Source of the DNA: Litorivicinus sp.
GTDB lineage: Bacteria > Pseudomonadota > Gammaproteobacteria > Pseudomonadales > Litorivicinaceae
DNA length: 64,000 nt
NCBI GenBank assembly: GCA_018401755.1
Contig: JAGYKJ010000007.1
Span: 310,001-374,000 of the forward strand
Direction of reading: 5' to 3'
Shown: positions 26,238 through 33,954 of the stretch, one piece after another
How the letters are laid out: the number at the start of each line of letters is the position of its first letter
Numbering within the stretch: position 1 is the first letter of the stretch
The notes under the pieces: generated by a model
Seen by the model: the letters and a program-made list of their open reading frames with translations, nothing else
The model's database searches: none
What the model was told of the DNA's origin: nothing
Made by a program: the position numbers and the translations under genes

Positions 26238-27554
26238 ATGACGAAGCTGTTTGAACCTTCTCTTCCCAAGCTAATGGAAGCACTGGCATCCGAGGCTCAG
26301 GGATTGAAGGGCATGGATCGTCGGAATTTTCTGAAGGGAGGGATTGCCGCAGTCGCCGGGCTTGCCTCTGTTCAAATTATTCCGAAAGCAAACGCAGAGC
26401 CCAATTTGCCGCCGAATATCCCGGAATGGCAAACCTATTTGGGGCGAGGTGTGGTGGCGAAGCCATACGGCGAGCCCTCTGAATTTGAAGATTTGCAACG
26501 GCGAACAGTCCCTTGGTTGACTGCGGATGCACAGTCGTCGATTTCGATGACTCCGTTGCAGGATCTGGAAGGCATTATCACCCCCAGCGGGCTGGTGTTT
26601 GAGCGCTACCATGGTGGTATTCCGAACGTCAATCCTGACCAGCATCGCTTGATTATTCATGGGCTGGTGGATCGTCCGATCGTTCTGTCCATGGATGACC
26701 TCCGACGGTTTCCGAGTGTGTCGGAAATTCGCTTCATTGAATGTCCTGCCAATGGCGGCATGGAATGGCGTGGTGCGCAGATGGAAGCAGTTCAATTTAC
26801 GCACGGGATGCTGTCTTGCTGCGAGTGGACTGGGGTGAAGCTCTCGAGCCTACTGGCTGAGGTTGGGGTGAAGCCGGAGGGCAAGTGGATCCTCGCTGAA
26901 GGCGCTGATGCGGCAGGGATGTCACGGTCGATTCCGATCGAGAAGGCGTTGGATGATGCCTTGATCGTGTGGGGTCAAAATGGTGAGGCGCTGCGTCCAG
27001 AGCAAGGCTATCCAGTGCGCTTGTTACTTCCTGGTTGGGAAGGGAATACCTCTGTGAAATGGTTGCGTCGACTGGAGGTCGGTGATCAACCATGGCATCA
27101 CCGTGAGGAAACATCAAAGTACACGGATTTAATGCCCGATGGTCGCGCACGTCGGTTTACCTGGGTTCAGGAATGTAATTCAGTCATCACCTCACCGTGT
27201 CCGGAAAAGCCACTGCGGCATCGTGGATTCTTGGAAATCCAAGGGTTTGCATGGTCAGGTAAGGGCAAGATCAAAGCGGTTGATGTGAGTTTTGATGGAG
27301 GAGTCAATTGGCAACGGGCTGAGCTCAAGGGATTGGTGCTCGATAAGGCCCTCACGCGATTCAGCCTGCAGACCCAATGGAATGGTGAGCCTTGGCTGTT
27401 GCAATCTCGTGCGATTGACGAAACTGGCTACGTGCAGCCAACGCTGAGACAGTTACGCGACCTGCGTGGCGGTTGGTCGATTTATCACAAAAACTCCATT
27501 CATACCTGGAACGTGACTGAGAAAGGAGAGGTATACAATGTTCAGATCTCCTAA
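26238..27554 (+). CDS. soxC: sulfane dehydrogenase molybdenum subunit SoxC
   Basis: A molybdoenzyme of 438 residues from the sulfite oxidase family. The SoxCD complex oxidises the sulfane sulfur carried on SoxY in the periplasm. The Moco Cys is Cys169 in IECPANGGMEWRG, which is SoxC-like. A Tat-type signal (MDRRNFLKGGIAAVAGLA) lies at residues 25-45. I chose the ATG at 26238, after GGAAGGG; the longer frame from 26154 adds unrelated residues. Its last 17 bases overlap soxD. The nearby moa/moe genes could supply its cofactor. Confidence 0.94.
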   Translation: MTKLFEPSLPKLMEALASEAQGLKGMDRRNFLKGGIAAVAGLASVQIIPKANAEPNLPPNIPEWQTYLGRGVVAKPYGEPSEFEDLQRRTVPWLTADAQSSISMTPLQDLEGIITPSGLVFERYHGGIPNVNPDQHRLIIHGLVDRPIVLSMDDLRRFPSVSEIRFIECPANGGMEWRGAQMEAVQFTHGMLSCCEWTGVKLSSLLAEVGVKPEGKWILAEGADAAGMSRSIPIEKALDDALIVWGQNGEALRPEQGYPVRLLLPGWEGNTSVKWLRRLEVGDQPWHHREETSKYTDLMPDGRARRFTWVQECNSVITSPCPEKPLRHRGFLEIQGFAWSGKGKIKAVDVSFDGGVNWQRAELKGLVLDKALTRFSLQTQWNGEPWLLQSRAIDETGYVQPTLRQLRDLRGGWSIYHKNSIHTWNVTEKGEVYNVQIS

Positions 27555-28500
27555 GTGTGGGGCATTCACTGCCGCCTTGCTGATGTCGATATCACCCGTG
27601 TTAATTGCTGGACCTCTCGGTATTGGTGCTCCTGCGACAGCAGAGATGATTGCTGGGTGGGACATCGATATTCGACCTGACGGTCAAGGGCTTCCTCCGG
27701 GCGCCGGATCGGTCGCTGACGGCGAAGGCCTCTATGAGGCTCAGTGTGCCAGTTGCCATGGTCTATTTGGTGAGGGAGCGGGTCGCTGGCCAGTTCTCGC
27801 CGGTGGTGAGGGAACCCTCGATACCGCACATCCTGAAAAGACGGTCGGGTCCTATTGGCCTTATGCATCGACGCTTTGGGACTATATCCATCGCGCGATG
27901 CCCTATCCTGCACCACAGTCACTCACAGACGATGAAGTGTATGCAATCACGGCCTACGTTCTGTATCTCAATGACATCGTGGATGATGACTTTGTCCTGA
28001 ATCAAGAGACGTTTCAGGAGGTGAAGATGCCAAATGAGCCGAATTTTTACATTGATGATCGCCCTGATGTGGTGAACACACGATGCATGGCAAATTGTGC
28101 GGATCCAGCGCTGTTTGAGATCGTAACAACGATCAATGGGGTGACTCCGACCGCGCATTTTAAAGAAGACAGTGGCGTGGCAGCCAATCATTACGGCAAT
28201 GAGTCGTCTGGTGCCGAGTCAGTCAAAGTTGCACTGAGTGACGCCGCGGTTGCAGGCGAGAGCGTTCATGCGAAGGCATGCAACGTCTGTCATGGAGCGG
28301 GTATTGCTGGTGCGCCAGTGACAGGTGATGCCGGAGCATGGACGGATCGAATTGCGCAAGGTATGTCAACACTGAACAAGCATGCCATCGAAGGGTATGT
28401 TGGTAAAAACGGAGTGATGCCAGCAAAGGGTGGGAATATGGCGCTTTCTGATGATGAGGTCGCCAATGCGGTGGCATTCATGGTGGAATCCAGCCAATAA
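27538..28500 (+). CDS. soxD: sulfane dehydrogenase diheme cytochrome SoxD
   Basis: The electron-accepting partner of SoxC, 320 residues, exported by an N-terminal signal. Two heme sites are present: CASCH at residues 70-74 and CNVCH from residue 248. Distal Met candidates are AMPYPAPQSLTDDE for the first domain and VMPAKGGNMALSDDE for the second. An AAAGGAGAGG box precedes the ATG inside soxC. Both hemes are intact, in contrast to the soxX remnant immediately downstream. Confidence 0.94.
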   Translation: MFRSPKCGAFTAALLMSISPVLIAGPLGIGAPATAEMIAGWDIDIRPDGQGLPPGAGSVADGEGLYEAQCASCHGLFGEGAGRWPVLAGGEGTLDTAHPEKTVGSYWPYASTLWDYIHRAMPYPAPQSLTDDEVYAITAYVLYLNDIVDDDFVLNQETFQEVKMPNEPNFYIDDRPDVVNTRCMANCADPALFEIVTTINGVTPTAHFKEDSGVAANHYGNESSGAESVKVALSDAAVAGESVHAKACNVCHGAGIAGAPVTGDAGAWTDRIAQGMSTLNKHAIEGYVGKNGVMPAKGGNMALSDDEVANAVAFMVESSQ

Positions 28501-28526
28501 GGCTGGGTGACTAGGGCTTCACCATA

Positions 28527-28861
28527 GTGAAAATAAGACTGCAAGCAGCTGTTGCGATGAGAGCGACACGTTGCACCGGGTCAGTCTGGGCTGCGTCAGC
28601 GGTTGAAGAAGGCAAAAAGATTGCATTTAATAGGGGTAAAGGCAGTTGGGTGGCGTGTGACATGCTGGCGTATAACCCGGTAACAATGGAACGTCCCTAA
28701 TGGAAAAGAAGCGTCGTTTTCTAGATAAAGCGTGTTTGCGCAAGTAAAGTTGGGAGGCTACCCGAGGAATCCCAATGACTATGATGCTCCCATTTGGGCT
28801 GGATCGAGTTTTGGCAGAGCGAGAGATCGATCTCGTGACCGAGTATGTTCATTCACAGTAA
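28527..28861 (+). pseudogene. soxX: decayed soxX (SoxA-partner cytochrome c)
   Basis: Conceptual translation follows SoxX from end to end but no frame is open. The first part (AVEEGKKIAFNRGKGS) leads into the heme site, which now reads WVACD at 28647-28661 instead of C-x-x-C-H: the first Cys and the His are both gone. A frameshift follows. The second frame reads NNGTSLMEKKRRFLDKACLRK, then an in-frame TAA at 28745-28747, then MMLPFGLDRVLAEREIDLV and EYVHS, the typical SoxX C-terminus. Loss of heme ligands, a frameshift and a nonsense codon rule out a single sequencing error. Confidence 0.86.
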
Positions 28862-28879
28862 TCGAAAAGGAGAGTTGCG

Positions 28880-29332
28880 ATGGATCGTCGTGGCGCGTTA
28901 AAAGTCCTTGGCCTCGCGGGTTCAGCCCTGACGGCCTTGGTGGGGTTGCCAAAGTTGGCAATGGCTAGCTGGGCGAAGACGGCATTTGAGGCCCGCAGTG
29001 GCGCAGATGCACTACAGGGTTTGTATGGCGGGAATGCCACAACCCCCAGTGATGCGGTCAAATTGAAGGCTCCTGACATCGCTGAGAATGGTGCGGTTGT
29101 GCCGATTGAGGTCGAGACCGATATGGACGCAGAGTCGATTGCGATCCTGATTGAAAAGAATCCATCGCCATTAGCAGGATCCTTTGATTTACCAGCAGGG
29201 ACTAAGGCGTTGGTCAAGACACGCGTCCGGATGGGTGAAACGACCAATGTGACAGCGGTTGTCAAATCAGGCGGCAAGCTATACACGGCAACCAAAGAAG
29301 TCAAAGTCACCATCGGCGGTTGCGGCGGTTAA
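28880..29332 (+). CDS. soxY: sulfur carrier subunit SoxY
   Basis: A carrier protein of 150 residues on which sulfur intermediates are bound covalently. The C-terminus is VKVTIGGCGG with the carrier Cys at 148 on its flexible arm. A Tat-like signal (MDRRGALKVLGLAGSALTAL) precedes the mature part. AAAGGAGAG sits before the ATG. It forms a complex with SoxZ, encoded 12 bases downstream. It is fully intact, including the Cys that SoxXA would load. Confidence 0.94.
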   Translation: MDRRGALKVLGLAGSALTALVGLPKLAMASWAKTAFEARSGADALQGLYGGNATTPSDAVKLKAPDIAENGAVVPIEVETDMDAESIAILIEKNPSPLAGSFDLPAGTKALVKTRVRMGETTNVTAVVKSGGKLYTATKEVKVTIGGCGG

Positions 29333-29344
29333 GAGGAGAGCATC

Positions 29345-29650
29345 ATGACAACAATTCGTATCAAAGCTAAAGAGCGCGCGGGCATTGTTGACGTCAAGTC
29401 ACTGATGAAGCACCCAATGGAAACAGGACTGCGTAAAGATAAAGATGGAAATATCATTCCACCTCACTTTATTCAGGAAATCGTCGCGGAAAATAATGGA
29501 GCAGTCGTGTTCTCGGGATCATTCAATACATCGATCTCCAAGGATCCTTACCTCTCTTTTCAATACAGCGGCAAGAAGGGCGATAAGCTCACGTTGTCTT
29601 GGGCGGATAATCAGGGGCAGAAGGAGAGCACCACGGTTGATGTTGGTTAA
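29345..29650 (+). CDS. soxZ: sulfur carrier subunit SoxZ
   Basis: The partner of SoxY, 101 residues, an immunoglobulin-like beta sandwich without a signal peptide; it is exported with SoxY. The characteristic opening (TIRIKAKERAGIVDVKSLMK followed by HPMETG) and the GSFNTSISKDPYLSFQYSG region are seen. AGAGGAGAG precedes the ATG. It is intact and normal length. Confidence 0.94.
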   Translation: MTTIRIKAKERAGIVDVKSLMKHPMETGLRKDKDGNIIPPHFIQEIVAENNGAVVFSGSFNTSISKDPYLSFQYSGKKGDKLTLSWADNQGQKESTTVDVG

Positions 29651-29689
29651 TTCGCTCAACAGGGTGTCTCGGATAACAATAATTTGGTG

Positions 29690-29895
29690 ACAACTGGCTA
29701 AGGGGTGTGGGTTGTCATCTGTATGGCTCAGGTCAGACTCCGTGGTCTAAGACACTCTTGATGTCCTATGGCCACGCCATAGGGTTCCCTGGGTACCGTG
29801 GGAAGTGGCGAGAGATGAAAACAATACTGATTGTGACCATGCTTACCGCCCAAGTGCTCGCACCCTGGTCTCATGCTGCGAAGATCAAAGCGTGA
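29690..29895 (+). pseudogene. soxA: remnant of soxA plus an orphan signal peptide
   Basis: Between soxZ and soxB, where soxA often lies, one frame reads GCH (Cys-His codons 29713-29718) and then YGHAIGFPGYRGKWREM. This matches the second heme region of SoxA: C-x-x-C-H, about 23 residues, then [FY]P-x-YR-x-x-W. The first heme Cys is lost and nothing of the rest of SoxA is present. At 29815 the same frame continues into an ATG and a 26-residue signal-peptide-like stretch (MKTILIVTMLTAQVLAPWSH) that stops at once. I read this as rearranged soxA debris. Confidence 0.68.
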
Positions 29896-29997
29896 GCTGG
29901 AACATGGCGAGCCCGCGTACCACACTCATCGCGCACGCTGAAACAGGCGCGGCCTTCGTCGCGCTTTTGTAAATAACATCTGATACTAGAGGGATCT

Positions 29998-31749
29998 ATG
30001 AGTTTAAGTCGACGTGAGTTTGGCCAGATATTGTCACTGGCTGCAGCAGGATCGATGCTGCCACTGACCAGCCGCGCGGAATCGGCGATCTTTGATACAG
30101 CTCCCTTTGGTCAGGTGCGTCTGATGCATATCACGGATTGCCACGCACAACTCAATCCGATTTATTTTCGAGAACCGAATGTCAACCTGGGGCTTTATGA
30201 TGCCAAGGGTCGTCCTCCACATGTGGTCGGAGCATCCTTGCTCGCGGAGTTTGGCATCAAAGCTGGATCGCCCGAAGCGCACGCGTTTACCTACTTGGGA
30301 TTTCAGGAAGCAGCGCGTCGCTTTGGGAAAGTTGGGGGCTTTGCGCACTTAAAGACATTGGTGGATCGGCTACGTGGCGAATATGGGCGTGAGCAGACAT
30401 TACTCATGGATGGGGGCGACACCTGGCAGGGCTCTGCGACCAGCCTCTGGACGCGCGGGCAGGACATGGTCGATGCCTGTAATCTGTTGGGCGTGGATGT
30501 GATGACCGGGCATTGGGAATTCACCTATCTGGAGGACGAAATACGTGCCAATTTGGAGCGGTTCCAGGGTGAGTTCGTCGCGCAGAACGTGAAGGTCAGT
30601 GAGGATGCGTTATTCGAAGGTGCCGAGGCCTTTGATGAAGATTCTGGGCACGCCTTTAAGCCCTATACGATTCGCGAAATGAAGGGGTTTCGAGTGGCTG
30701 TGATTGGTCAATCGTTCCCCTACACACCGATTGCCAATCCAGCACGGTTTATCCCAAATTGGACCTTTGGTATTCGGGATGGCGAGATGCAGGAGTTGGT
30801 CAATCAAGTCCGCGCTGACCATCAGCCACACGCGGTGATCGTTCTATCTCATAACGGAATGGATGTGGATATCAAGATGGCTGAGGTCGTCTCAGGCATT
30901 GATGTGATTTTTGGTGGACATACCCACGACGCGGTCCCAGCACCAGTCGCGGTGAATAATGCAGGCGGCACTACTTTGGTGACTAACGCGGGCTCCAATG
31001 GCAAGTTCTTAGGGGTCATGGATCTGGAACTATCTGAGCAGGGCGTAAAGGGCTATCGCTATCGGTTACTGCCGGTATTCGCCAACTTACTTGATGCAGA
31101 TTCCGGGATGACACAGCTCATCACTGAGATTCGGGCACCCTACGCGACACAGTTGAATGAAGAATTGGCGGTTGCTGATGAGCTGCTCTATCGCCGTGGT
31201 AACTTCAATGGGACCTTCGATCAGGTGATCTGTGATGCATTACGTATTCAGCTCAATGCACAGATTTCCTTGAGTCCTGGATTTCGTTGGGGGACGACCG
31301 TGCTACCTGGTGACGCCATCACCTTTGACAATGTGATGGATCAAACCGCGATCACCTACCCCGAGACATACGTACGCCCCATGACTGGCGCAGAGATCAA
31401 GCTGATCTTGGAGGATGTCTGCGATAACCTGTTCAATGCGGATCCGTTTTATCAGCAAGGCGGCGACATGGTCCGGGTCGGTGGTCTGGATTATGTGGTC
31501 AATCCAATGGCTGAGATTGGGTCTCGAATTTCCGAGATGCGCTTGGATGACGGCAGTGTTGTTGAGGCAGGCAAGTCGTATCTCGTCGCAGGATGGGCGA
31601 CTGTCGGATCGCAGTCAATTGGCCCTCACATCTATGACGTGGTCGCTGATTACTTGCGTGATCAGAAAACGATTCGCATCCAAAAGCTCAATTCGCCAGT
31701 GATTCGGGGTATTGGTTCGAACCCTGGATTAGCGAATTATTTGTCATAA
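29998..31749 (+). CDS. soxB: thiosulfohydrolase SoxB
   Basis: A dimanganese 5'-nucleotidase-family hydrolase of 583 residues that releases sulfate from SoxY-bound sulfur. A Tat signal starts SLSRREFGQILSLAAAG. Metal and catalytic motifs are ITDCHAQ (about residue 45), DGGDTWQGS (about 139), GHWEF, SHNGMDVD and GGHTHDAVP. The last tens of residues are also family-like. It is the final intact gene of the sox operon on this strand. Confidence 0.95.
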   Translation: MSLSRREFGQILSLAAAGSMLPLTSRAESAIFDTAPFGQVRLMHITDCHAQLNPIYFREPNVNLGLYDAKGRPPHVVGASLLAEFGIKAGSPEAHAFTYLGFQEAARRFGKVGGFAHLKTLVDRLRGEYGREQTLLMDGGDTWQGSATSLWTRGQDMVDACNLLGVDVMTGHWEFTYLEDEIRANLERFQGEFVAQNVKVSEDALFEGAEAFDEDSGHAFKPYTIREMKGFRVAVIGQSFPYTPIANPARFIPNWTFGIRDGEMQELVNQVRADHQPHAVIVLSHNGMDVDIKMAEVVSGIDVIFGGHTHDAVPAPVAVNNAGGTTLVTNAGSNGKFLGVMDLELSEQGVKGYRYRLLPVFANLLDADSGMTQLITEIRAPYATQLNEELAVADELLYRRGNFNGTFDQVICDALRIQLNAQISLSPGFRWGTTVLPGDAITFDNVMDQTAITYPETYVRPMTGAEIKLILEDVCDNLFNADPFYQQGGDMVRVGGLDYVVNPMAEIGSRISEMRLDDGSVVEAGKSYLVAGWATVGSQSIGPHIYDVVADYLRDQKTIRIQKLNSPVIRGIGSNPGLANYLS

Positions 31750-31772: not shown

Positions 31773-32216
31773 TCACTGACTTCGCGTGATCAACTCGAGC
31801 GTACGTTCGATCTGATAACTATAAAAATCAATCGCATCTGGGACGCCATATTTCGGCTCGGACACACTGCGACCACCCGCATCAAGGAAGAGTAAGGTTG
31901 GTGTGCCAAAGGCCCCATATCGAGCCGCAAAATCACGGCCCGCAATCGCGGTACCATCGAAATCTGTCACCATCAGGCCACGATCGATTCCAACGTGCGC
32001 AAATTGAACGCGTCCCGTGTAGGCGTTAGATGCGCGCAATGGCTGGAGAATCACTGATTCAAGTCGCTCACAAAAATGACAACCCGCTTGCGTGATCATG
32101 ATTAACCAGGGCTGGTTTTGCTGCTTGCTGAAATCCGGGTTGACAGACAGGGGTGTTGCTGCGAGCGCGAGGTGGCCCGCGAGAAGTGCCGTCACCATTA
32201 CCAGAAGACGCATCAA
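31773..32216 (-). CDS. periplasmic thioredoxin-like protein (SoxW-like)
   Basis: A thioredoxin-fold protein of 147 residues with a signal peptide (first about 20 residues) and redox motif CHFC (AGCHFCERLE, about residue 46). The cis-Pro is in AFGTPTLLFLD. Proteins of this type (SoxW) reduce Sox components and sit next to sox genes. Its start overlaps the end of the broken hydrolase gene by 4 bases, so they were one operon, convergent with soxB. Confidence 0.85.
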   Translation of the reverse strand: MMRLLVMVTALLAGHLALAATPLSVNPDFSKQQNQPWLIMITQAGCHFCERLESVILQPLRASNAYTGRVQFAHVGIDRGLMVTDFDGTAIAGRDFAARYGAFGTPTLLFLDAGGRSVSEPKYGVPDAIDFYSYQIERTLELITRSQ

Positions 32217-32989
32217 TGTACCGCCTGCTCTGCGATCAGAGTTGCCAAATCATCCCCATCTAAATCCCTGAAAAAGTGATCAGCACCTGCCATGATCTCG
32301 AGTGAAGTAGGCGCTTCCAAGGATGCCTGACCCAGTCCTTCTGGCAGGTCGGTGACCAGTGTGTCCAAAGAACCAGCGATCACGATCACAGGGATCTTAA
32401 TTGATTTCAAATTTGTGGGAGTGTCACCTTGCATCGTGTCGTAATCATAGTCCAGAAAGCGTCTGGCAGTCACCTGTGCGTTTTCGCAATAGAGATGTCT
32501 ATGGACGGTCATCACGGCTGGATGTTGCACTTTGGCGAGGTAAGCAAAAACCTAGTGCATTCCCTCGGTCATGGCATCCAAGGATGATGCGTTCGCCCCC
32601 TTGATCCGCAAGGTAAGTCACCCGTTGGTTGACTTCAGTCACCGGATCGGAATATTTGTGCCGATGGGTACTCCCACAGTTGAGCATGCCAGACCGTCCG
32701 CCTCGAGCTCAGCGACGGTTTGAATGATTTCCATGTCAGTGTATGCGAGCCTGCCATGCGTCAGAATGATGGGTGTCTGCCCTCGCAGGGTGCCAGTCAG
32801 CATCAAAGGCCAGGGGTGAGTCAGGTGTTGCCGTACGACCAGGGTTGCCGATATCGCGAGGCTGGCCTTGGCAGTCCAAGACAGAGCGTGCGGTATTATT
32901 TCCTTTTGATATGACGTTATAGCTGAAAGTTTGAACTTGTGCTGTCGTTCGCGCACTATACGGGCGTGTGTGGGGTCGCTGTGTTGCAA
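32213..32989 (-). pseudogene. alpha/beta hydrolase, two frameshifts
   Basis: Three frames join into one alpha/beta hydrolase. Frame 1 carries the oxyanion-hole region (TPIILTHGRLAYTDMEIIQ). A shift near 32640 leads to KYSDPVTEVNQRV and the nucleophile elbow region (RIILGCHDRGNALGF). A second shift in a T-run near 32545 joins AYLAKVQHPAVMTVHRHLYC and the C-terminal part with Asp (AGSLDTLVTD) and the final His (AGADHFFRDLDG). The elbow, GCHDRGNA, is odd compared with the usual GxSxG. The N-terminal limit is uncertain. Confidence 0.7.
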
Positions 32990-33085: not shown

Positions 33086-33394
33086 ATGAAACGTTTGTAT
33101 GTATTGGCCTTGACGGTGATGTGCAGTGCGTCAGTGATGGCGGCTGGGGATGCTGACAAGGGAAAAGCGAAAGCAGCAATGTGTGCAGGTTGTCATGGGG
33201 CGAATGGGATCGCAATGGTGCCAACGTATCCAAATCTTGCTGGGCAAAATGCAGCCTATCTTGCAGGGACCTTGAAGGCCTATAAAACACAATCGCGTAA
33301 AGGCTATCAGGCAGGAATCATGTATGCCATGGCCTCTGGGTTGAGTGATCAGGATATCGCTGATCTTGCTGCATATTACTCGAGTCTGAAGTGA
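33086..33394 (+). CDS. small periplasmic cytochrome c
   Basis: A class I cytochrome of 102 residues. A signal peptide (first about 19 residues, ending SVMA) leads to heme motif CAGCH and a distal Met in [19 protein letters not shown] lies before the ATG at 33086; an upstream ATG at 33050 adds residues outside the family. Being intact and beside sox genes it could accept electrons from SoxCD. It is translationally coupled to the following rhodanese gene. Confidence 0.88.
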
Positions 33395-33954
33395 TCTCAT
33401 GGCGTTTGAAAGCGGCCGCCTGCGCGGCCGTTTTCATTTCCATCGGGGTATTTGCAGCAACGGACTTCTTTGATCCGGCCTCGGGGTTACGAATTCATCA
33501 TTATACTGATCCAGTGCCTGATTCAGTCCCGGGTGGTGTCACCCTGAATACAGCGGAATTGGCTGTGTTGATTAAACAGGAATCTGTGATTTTGATTGAT
33601 GTGCTGTCGATTAATGATGTGCGCTACGACGAACTCGACGGGAGCTGGCCGGATTACCCAGCCCGTGAAAATATTCCCGGCAGTTTGTGGCTCCCGAATG
33701 TGGGGTATGGGCAGCCTGCAGACGATATGCAGACGTATTTCGTGTCCTCAGTTAACGCGGCAGCGGATGGTCAGCGCGATACACCGATTGTCGTATATTG
33801 CGTGTCAAGTTGCTGGATGGGATGGAATGCGGTGCAGCATTTGTCTCGCGCTGGGTTCACGCGGCTGTATTGGTATCCGGATGGAACCGATGGCTGGCTG
33901 ACTGCTGGGTATCCGGTGTCACCGTCCGAGCCTGTTCCTGTTGAAATCGACTAA
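33391..33954 (+). CDS. rhodanese-like protein with CxxxCW motif
   Basis: An exported rhodanese-fold protein of 187 residues with a signal peptide (first about 22 residues). The hallmark is [16 protein letters not shown] followed by [12 protein letters not shown], which places it in the 'PQQ-dependent catabolism-associated CXXCW' family. It begins with a GTG overlapping the cytochrome stop. Members are found with PQQ alcohol or sugar dehydrogenases and c-type cytochromes; the first Cys sits where rhodaneses carry the sulfur-accepting Cys, so a sulfur-transfer role beside sox is possible. Confidence 0.85.

Follow-up and report, generated by a model that had tools for sequence, protein, structure and literature searches.

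Decay of soxX, soxA and soxK within a Litorivicinus sox operon whose soxCDYZB genes are very likely still under purifying selection

A Sox system of the kind that lacks SoxXA is already known, because the report on SAR116 describes soxCDBYZ and fccAB without soxAX; the feed proposed there is oxidation of sulfide to elemental sulfur by FccAB, followed by its conversion to sulfate by SoxCDBYZ (PMC12262181). In cluster G1 of OM60/NOR5, SoxA is of a type that is said to require SoxK (PMC4003848), and Hyphomicrobium is reported to show no thiosulfate oxidation without SoxXA and SoxYZ (PMC11582611). OM252 genomes are reported to carry soxABCDXYZ in both subclades, with the exception of one species cluster, as well as sqr; growth on thiosulfate was shown by one isolate (PMC8269220). 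It is an unsettled question whether SoxXA serves thiosulfate loading only or every Sox turn. The locus described here is a sox operon at positions 26238-31749 of a 64,000-nucleotide stretch of Litorivicinus sp. DNA (assembly GCA_018401755.1, contig JAGYKJ010000007.1), referred to below as the window, with a G + C content of ~52%, slightly above the 47-51% reported for OM252 (PMC8269220). The SoxYZ carrier with its GGCGG arm, SoxB and SoxCD are present in this genome and the SoxXA loader is absent. Loss of SoxXA and SoxK is near certain and, judging from sequence comparisons, the remaining soxCDYZB genes are very likely still under purifying selection after that loss.

The ancestral layout is a soxCDXYZAKB operon, which is found with all genes intact in the sister genome G007, the nearest genome found (G000 denotes the window's own genome, and others are numbered in the same G0xx series). 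Between soxD and soxY, G000 displays a soxX pseudogene (28527-28861, + strand). Compared with the intact G007 gene, the start codon has changed from ATG to GTG and the heme site from CVTCH to WVACD, with the first Cys replaced by Trp and the His by Asp; a 7-bp deletion shifts the frame, and stops are present at ancestral codons 52 and 76. The best SoxX model match of the remnant, which includes the two stops, is 29.8 bits (cut-off 61), and its tblastn E-value is 7.6e-27. What remains of soxA, between soxZ and soxB, is ~38 codons of heme region (29713-29826, + strand; 66% identity to G007 by tblastn, E 2.9e-11). Deletions on both flanks have removed the 5′ part and the 3′ end, and the first heme Cys is lost. 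Both remnants are more than chance resemblances, given these E-values and their expected order and place. The soxA scrap runs directly into a remnant of soxK, which encodes the SoxXA-binding protein (29815-29940, + strand, by alignment to G007 soxK). This comprises a signal peptide (29815-29895), an internal deletion and a 3′ scrap, the frame ending after 26 codons. The intact SoxK of G007 matches SAXB, the NCBIfam SoxAX-binding protein model, at E 8.8e-13 and 48.7 bits, below the cut-off of 95. Sequencing error is ruled out as the cause of the soxX and soxA decay in the window, because the alignment to the sister displays large deletions and many substitutions. That alignment, with the two stops, the 7-bp deletion and the loss of both heme residues, bears out the original prediction that soxX and soxA had decayed; the description of the operon given there was correct but incomplete, the soxK remnant and a decayed hydrolase gene (see below) having been missed.

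The other five genes have open frames in one direction. These are soxC (26238-27554, + strand), encoding the sulfane dehydrogenase molybdenum subunit, with 654.8 bits to TIGR04555 (cut-off 420) and 97% identity to G007; soxD (27538-28500, + strand), encoding a diheme cytochrome c; soxY (28880-29332, + strand), with a C-terminal GGCGG carrier arm and 172.9 bits to TIGR04488 (cut-off 125); soxZ (29345-29650, + strand), with 121 bits to TIGR04490 (cut-off 76); and soxB (29998-31749, + strand), encoding the thiosulfohydrolase, with 842.6 bits to TIGR04486 (cut-off 550). The identities of soxC, soxY, soxZ and soxB come from NCBIfam equivalog models, all above cut-off, and agree with the earlier description of an intact soxCDYZB with GGCGG on SoxY. 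No SoxD model match was obtained in the NCBIfam search; soxD is named by its position directly 3′ of soxC, its two CXXCH sites and 88% identity to the G007 copy.

Pairwise ratios of nonsynonymous to synonymous substitution rates (dN/dS) between G000 and G007 are 0.011 for soxC, 0.040 for soxD and 0.020 for soxY, which are a guide only as dS is saturated, and were not computable for soxZ and soxB. Because of this saturation, selection was gauged from changes at family-invariant residues and not from branch dN/dS. Residues were scored as invariant when G007 shared them with the usable relatives, of which there were 10 to 14 per sox gene; alignment rows that were too short or contained stops were excluded. 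G006, a second genome without SoxXA, was included for SoxD, SoxZ and SoxB, and the soxB set is deeper in that most relatives carry a distant soxB form. The invariant residues changed in G000 are 1/268 in SoxC, 1/143 in SoxD, 0/58 in SoxY, 2/39 in SoxZ and 2/252 in SoxB, and 13/36 and 6/18 in the remnants of soxX and soxA, respectively. The contrast is thus 6/760 in SoxCDYZB versus 19/54 in the remains of soxX and soxA (Fisher p 1.9e-19). In G007, which served as control, 4 of 758 are changed (SoxC 2/269, SoxD 1/143, SoxY 1/59, SoxZ 0/37, SoxB 0/250). About 274 changes among the 760 residues would be expected had soxCDYZB been unconstrained as long as soxX. The unconstrained time of soxCDYZB is estimated at no more than 5% of that of soxX, or 8% when the soxX estimate is taken at its low bound. 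Derived changes are balanced between G000 and G007 for SoxC, SoxD, SoxY and SoxB (the last against G022 only); SoxZ has six in G000 versus one in G007, a non-significant difference (p 0.125). SoxZ position 37, where by eye K is replaced in both genomes (by I in G000, by T in G006), was dropped from consideration, as chance overlap was judged likely, though uncomputed. Relaxed selection or decay of soxYZBCD was not found in G000, but SoxY and SoxZ are accelerated in G006.

The G000 assembly is 99.25% complete and consists of 7 contigs. A search of this genome with the SoxA model gave no match (over cut-off in 16 of the 29 genomes of the relatives search), and the SoxX model, over cut-off in 15 of those 29, found only the pseudogene. 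The SoxA/TsdA heme domain PF21342, which has matches in 13 of 24 genomes, is likewise without a match in G000, so that no TsdA-like domain was found there. Relocation of soxXA is rejected on these grounds: the genome yields no SoxA, no live SoxX and no TsdA-like match, and the option raised in the original prediction that soxXA had moved elsewhere is left unsupported.

Decay extends to an apparently exported alpha/beta hydrolase gene (~32222-32989, - strand, by alignment to G007, where it is intact), whose signal peptide was read by eye. The G000 copy has two internal deletions and frameshifts, and the Ser of an HSRGG motif is changed. This motif is invariant in 13/13 aligned relatives and, by our reading of the fold, may have a catalytic role. 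The hydrolase is present in all 13 SoxA-positive family genomes with fetched loci that reach the site, one copy being cut by a contig end, and is dead or absent in both SoxA-less genomes (1 in 105, with kinship ignored). The joint loss of soxK and the hydrolase suggests that they may form an accessory part of the system. A role as universal SoxXA partner is ruled out for the hydrolase: at E 1e-6 none was found in the 19 kb retrieved for the G034 sox region, where SoxA and SoxX are both over cut-off, and of 80 named soxB loci, some of them short, only one has it. The alpha/beta hydrolase gene also lies behind soxB in a metagenome-assembled genome labelled Lysobacterales (L032:3573-4250), and the link to sox therefore extends beyond the family.

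A second loss was detected in the same genus. In G006, soxD is followed after ~146 bp by soxY, without soxX, and the next gene after soxZ is soxB, represented by its end, with no soxA or soxK in between; neither the SoxA nor the SoxX model found a match in this genome. The SoxD tree places G000 beside G007 (support 97/94), and G006 with G009 and G010 (85/87). Given this grouping and the other soxB form in G006, the two losses are separate. Completeness of G006 is 68%, and L130, the contig with its sox genes, is poor: the soxY signal region and genes read as moaA, moaC and citrate synthase carry frameshifts, which represent either poor sequence or a decaying genome. Invariant residues are changed at 6/52 positions in SoxY and 8/45 in SoxZ, and much less in SoxC (2/158), SoxD (4/146) and SoxB (9/409). 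The acceleration of SoxY and SoxZ could reflect release from a partner that has been lost, but decay or poor sequence would also account for it, and purifying selection on SoxYZ of G006 after the loss is doubtful. The earlier proposal that the core cycle survives is supported by the selection on soxCDYZB of G000, together with this second, weaker case.

Sox genes are seen in 20 of the 22 genomes of the genus, and 18 of these 20 keep soxX and/or soxA; no SoxB or SoxC was seen in G016 and G019. Two forms of soxB are present within the genus. A longer form (~50% identical) in opposite orientation is found in most sox-bearing genomes (L115, L116, L130 and others), and G000, G007 and G022 have the ordinary form, which runs in the direction of the operon; this looks like gene replacement. 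For the class, 377 genomes were drawn at completeness of at least 95%, of which 51, G000 included, have SoxC over cut-off. SoxA is over cut-off in 33 of the 51, and 6 of the other 18 have weaker matches. Among these 18 SoxA-less genomes G000 alone has SoxB over cut-off; the other 17 have none, with one weak match of 161 bits against the cut-off of 550. In this sample SoxC without SoxA is not rare, and SoxC plus SoxB without SoxA is rare. With 5 to 14 kb viewed around soxC, a fused SoxYZ-like carrier was found near SoxCD in 3 of the 17 (L178:5865-6761, L180:7424-8296, L191:10387-11292; SoxA and SoxB not over cut-off). In these carriers the conserved Cys (GACS/GGCS) is internal and not on a C-terminal arm.

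The best-supported explanation, to which somewhat better than even weight is given on sequence grounds, is that a Sox system without SoxXA and SoxK is still working, fed by periplasmic sulfide oxidation. Sulfide would be oxidized in the periplasm by FccAB (flavocytochrome c sulfide dehydrogenase) and/or a twin-arginine (Tat)-type sulfide:quinone reductase (SQR). The resulting sulfane sulfur, as polysulfide or a directly transferred persulfide, would charge the SoxY arm cysteine, oxidation by SoxCD would bring the outer sulfur to the sulfonate level, and SoxB would then release sulfate; thiosulfate entry through Sox would be impossible for the cell. FccB of G000 has the domains PF21706 and PF09242 and resembles solved chains 5n1t, 1fcd and 3vrd, the closest of the solved chains being the flavin subunit of a sulfide dehydrogenase (E 2e-114). 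The gene that overlaps fccB encodes a diheme cytochrome c and is named fccA by place. The SQR of G000 is close to mitochondrial SQOR, and its twin-arginine start was read from the sequence. In a genus search queried with FccB, in which the three Tat-type copies all scored E 4e-12 or better, FccB was present in G000, G007 and G003, and the Tat-type SQR in 3 of 22 genomes, namely G000, G006 (69% identical) and G011 (62% over 244 residues). The other fetched SQR-like matches in the genus are of a plain type about one-third identical, or are not SQR. Both SoxXA-less genomes thus carry the Tat-type SQR (3/190 = 0.016 among the 20 sox-bearing genomes). The original prediction had offered another enzyme or another substrate as the means of loading SoxY; these are the remaining options, with the sulfide-oxidizing flavoproteins as the best candidates. 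As separate observations, both SoxXA-less genomes have a DUF5368 membrane protein gene immediately after that for the Tat-type SQR (L240:5466-5870, L248:89-442), and near fccAB G000 encodes a metallohydrolase related to SoxH (TIGR04559, below cut-off) as well as a small protein with a single CXXCH (L239:2878-4175).

Several points weigh against feeding by sulfide oxidation. The association of SQR with SoxXA loss was picked after several genes had been viewed, ignores kinship and rests on two losses; in addition, G006 is incomplete and its SQR lies on a 3-kb contig. The genus search did not find FccB in G006 or the Tat-type SQR in G007, and the Tat-type SQR is also carried by G011, which kept SoxXA. 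FccAB is also found in G007, which retains SoxXA, and in G003, which retains SoxA. Because these two SoxA-positive genomes carry FccAB, it did not arrive with the loss, and acquisition of fccAB together with SoxXA loss is rejected. To go by the title of a cited reference, a Rhodovulum cytochrome complex is reportedly essential for both thiosulfate and sulfide oxidation. In Paracoccus the full Sox set, including SoxXA, is reported to have been needed for H2S (PMC5371076), and in vitro SoxXA was required even with persulfurated (sulfane-loaded) SoxYZ, a result that, according to the authors, neither model explains (PMC5336275). A further-reaching form of the explanation is put forward tentatively and with clearly less confidence: in this family SoxX, SoxA, SoxK and the alpha/beta hydrolase might constitute a separable thiosulfate-entry module. 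With sulfide oxidized in the periplasm, FccAB or the Tat-type SQR would pass sulfane sulfur straight to the SoxY arm and the module would become dispensable, so that SoxXA would not be obligatory in the cycle, contrary to what the Paracoccus assays suggest.

Among other explanations, the one that survives best, although it is unlikely, is that SoxY is loaded non-enzymatically: tetrathionate, polysulfide or sulfite produced by other organisms would react with it by disulfide exchange, and the core would run normally. SoxYZ is reported to accept tetrathionate adducts in vitro, which sulfide converts to polysulfane forms; however, unmodified SoxYZ has no leaving group for sulfide and would need activation, and in vitro turnover still required SoxXA (PMC5336275). 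Tetrathionate would need an outside source, as no TsdA-like domain was found in G000.

It is improbable that the operon is a transitional relic in which soxXA, soxK and the hydrolase gene died first and the remaining genes are merely slower to decay. Such a course is consistent with decay of the neighbouring hydrolase, with the slight SoxZ excess of derived changes in G000, with the changed SoxY and SoxZ residues and frameshifted soxY signal region of G006, and with the finding of neither SoxB nor SoxC in G016 and G019. All five core frames of G000 are nonetheless open, and the six invariant residues changed stand against the ~274 expected if the genes had been unconstrained since soxX broke.

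Slightly less probable again is that SoxCD, SoxYZ and SoxB have been retained for a different role in sulfur metabolism (e.g. oxidation of sulfite, tetrathionate or organosulfur compounds), with another protein as donor, such as a CXXCW rhodanese. The fused SoxYZ-like carriers near SoxCD in SoxA-less gammaproteobacterial genomes point in this direction, as does the presence of a CXXCW rhodanese-like protein near sox in much of the genus, and SoxB of Erythrobacter flavus is proposed to act on tetrathionate and not on SoxYZ (PMC7608252). On the other hand, the Erythrobacter route begins with TsdA, not found in G000, and the retention of SoxB together with SoxYZ and SoxCD accords with release of sulfate from SoxY. 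As SoxY loader the CXXCW protein is ranked low: it evolves faster (dN 0.21) and was not seen at more than 45 bits at the sox locus of G006. Relocation of soxXA to unassembled sequence is very improbable, for although small gaps remain, the searches found no SoxA, no SoxA/TsdA domain and only a dead SoxX, and soxK and the hydrolase gene decayed along with soxXA.

Downstream of soxB in the window is an intact gene on the - strand (31773-32216) for a thioredoxin-like protein (PF13098, E 1.4e-8; 75% identity to G007 over 124 residues), called soxW here, a label of our own given by place. Beyond the hydrolase pseudogene, genes for a small cytochrome c and the rhodanese-like CXXCW protein are located at 33086-33954 on the + strand (PF00034, PF00581, TIGR03865 170 bits; synteny). 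Much of the genus has this pair in the vicinity of sox, and the two proteins are possible sulfur or electron partners. In G007, soxCDXYZAKB is followed by the thioredoxin-like gene, the alpha/beta hydrolase gene, the small cytochrome c gene, the CXXCW rhodanese-like gene and molybdopterin genes. Neighbouring genes of the latter type are taken to be moaA, moaC and moeA, names that are presumed and do not come from a family search.

G000 represents a natural experiment on the need for SoxXA, which is lost while the rest of the system is under selection, and the intact sister G007 provides a matched control. The presence of sox in a metagenome need not signify thiosulfate oxidation, and for G000 a soxB or soxC marker would probably mispredict thiosulfate use. 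In the literature, part of it available as excerpts, no published SoxXA loss or pseudogenes were found apart from the SAR116 report and a remark on Sulfurimonas, which often has soxCD, possibly without soxAB; this shares with G000 SoxCD without SoxA, and differs in that SoxB may be absent too (PMC11294248). The complete soxCDXYZAKB of OM60/NOR5 cluster G1, as reported, has the gene order of G000, which is also that of G007 and G022 (PMC4003848), but SoxX, SoxA and SoxK are lost in G000. The Sox set of the Allochromatium type is described as partial like that of G000, but the opposite half is missing, SoxCD being absent (PMC9959259). Loci L178, L180 and L191 resemble G000 in having SoxCD and a SoxYZ-type carrier without SoxXA; they differ by the fused carrier and by lack of SoxB and the GGCGG arm. 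In the route described for Erythrobacter flavus, SoxB is used without SoxXA loading, as in G000, but the route starts with TsdA and tetrathionate takes the place of SoxYZ as the proposed target of SoxB (PMC7608252). The closest likeness in gene content is to SAR116, as G000 also has soxCDBYZ and fccAB without working soxAX. SAR116 belongs to the Alphaproteobacteria and its suite is presented as a presence/absence heatmap; the portions of that report available make no mention of pseudogenes, a selection test of the core, SoxK or the hydrolase (PMC12262181). In G000, by contrast, which presumably belongs to another class, the loss is caught in place next to an intact sister, and what is new is the scar of the loss, the measured selection afterwards and the joint loss of soxK and the hydrolase.

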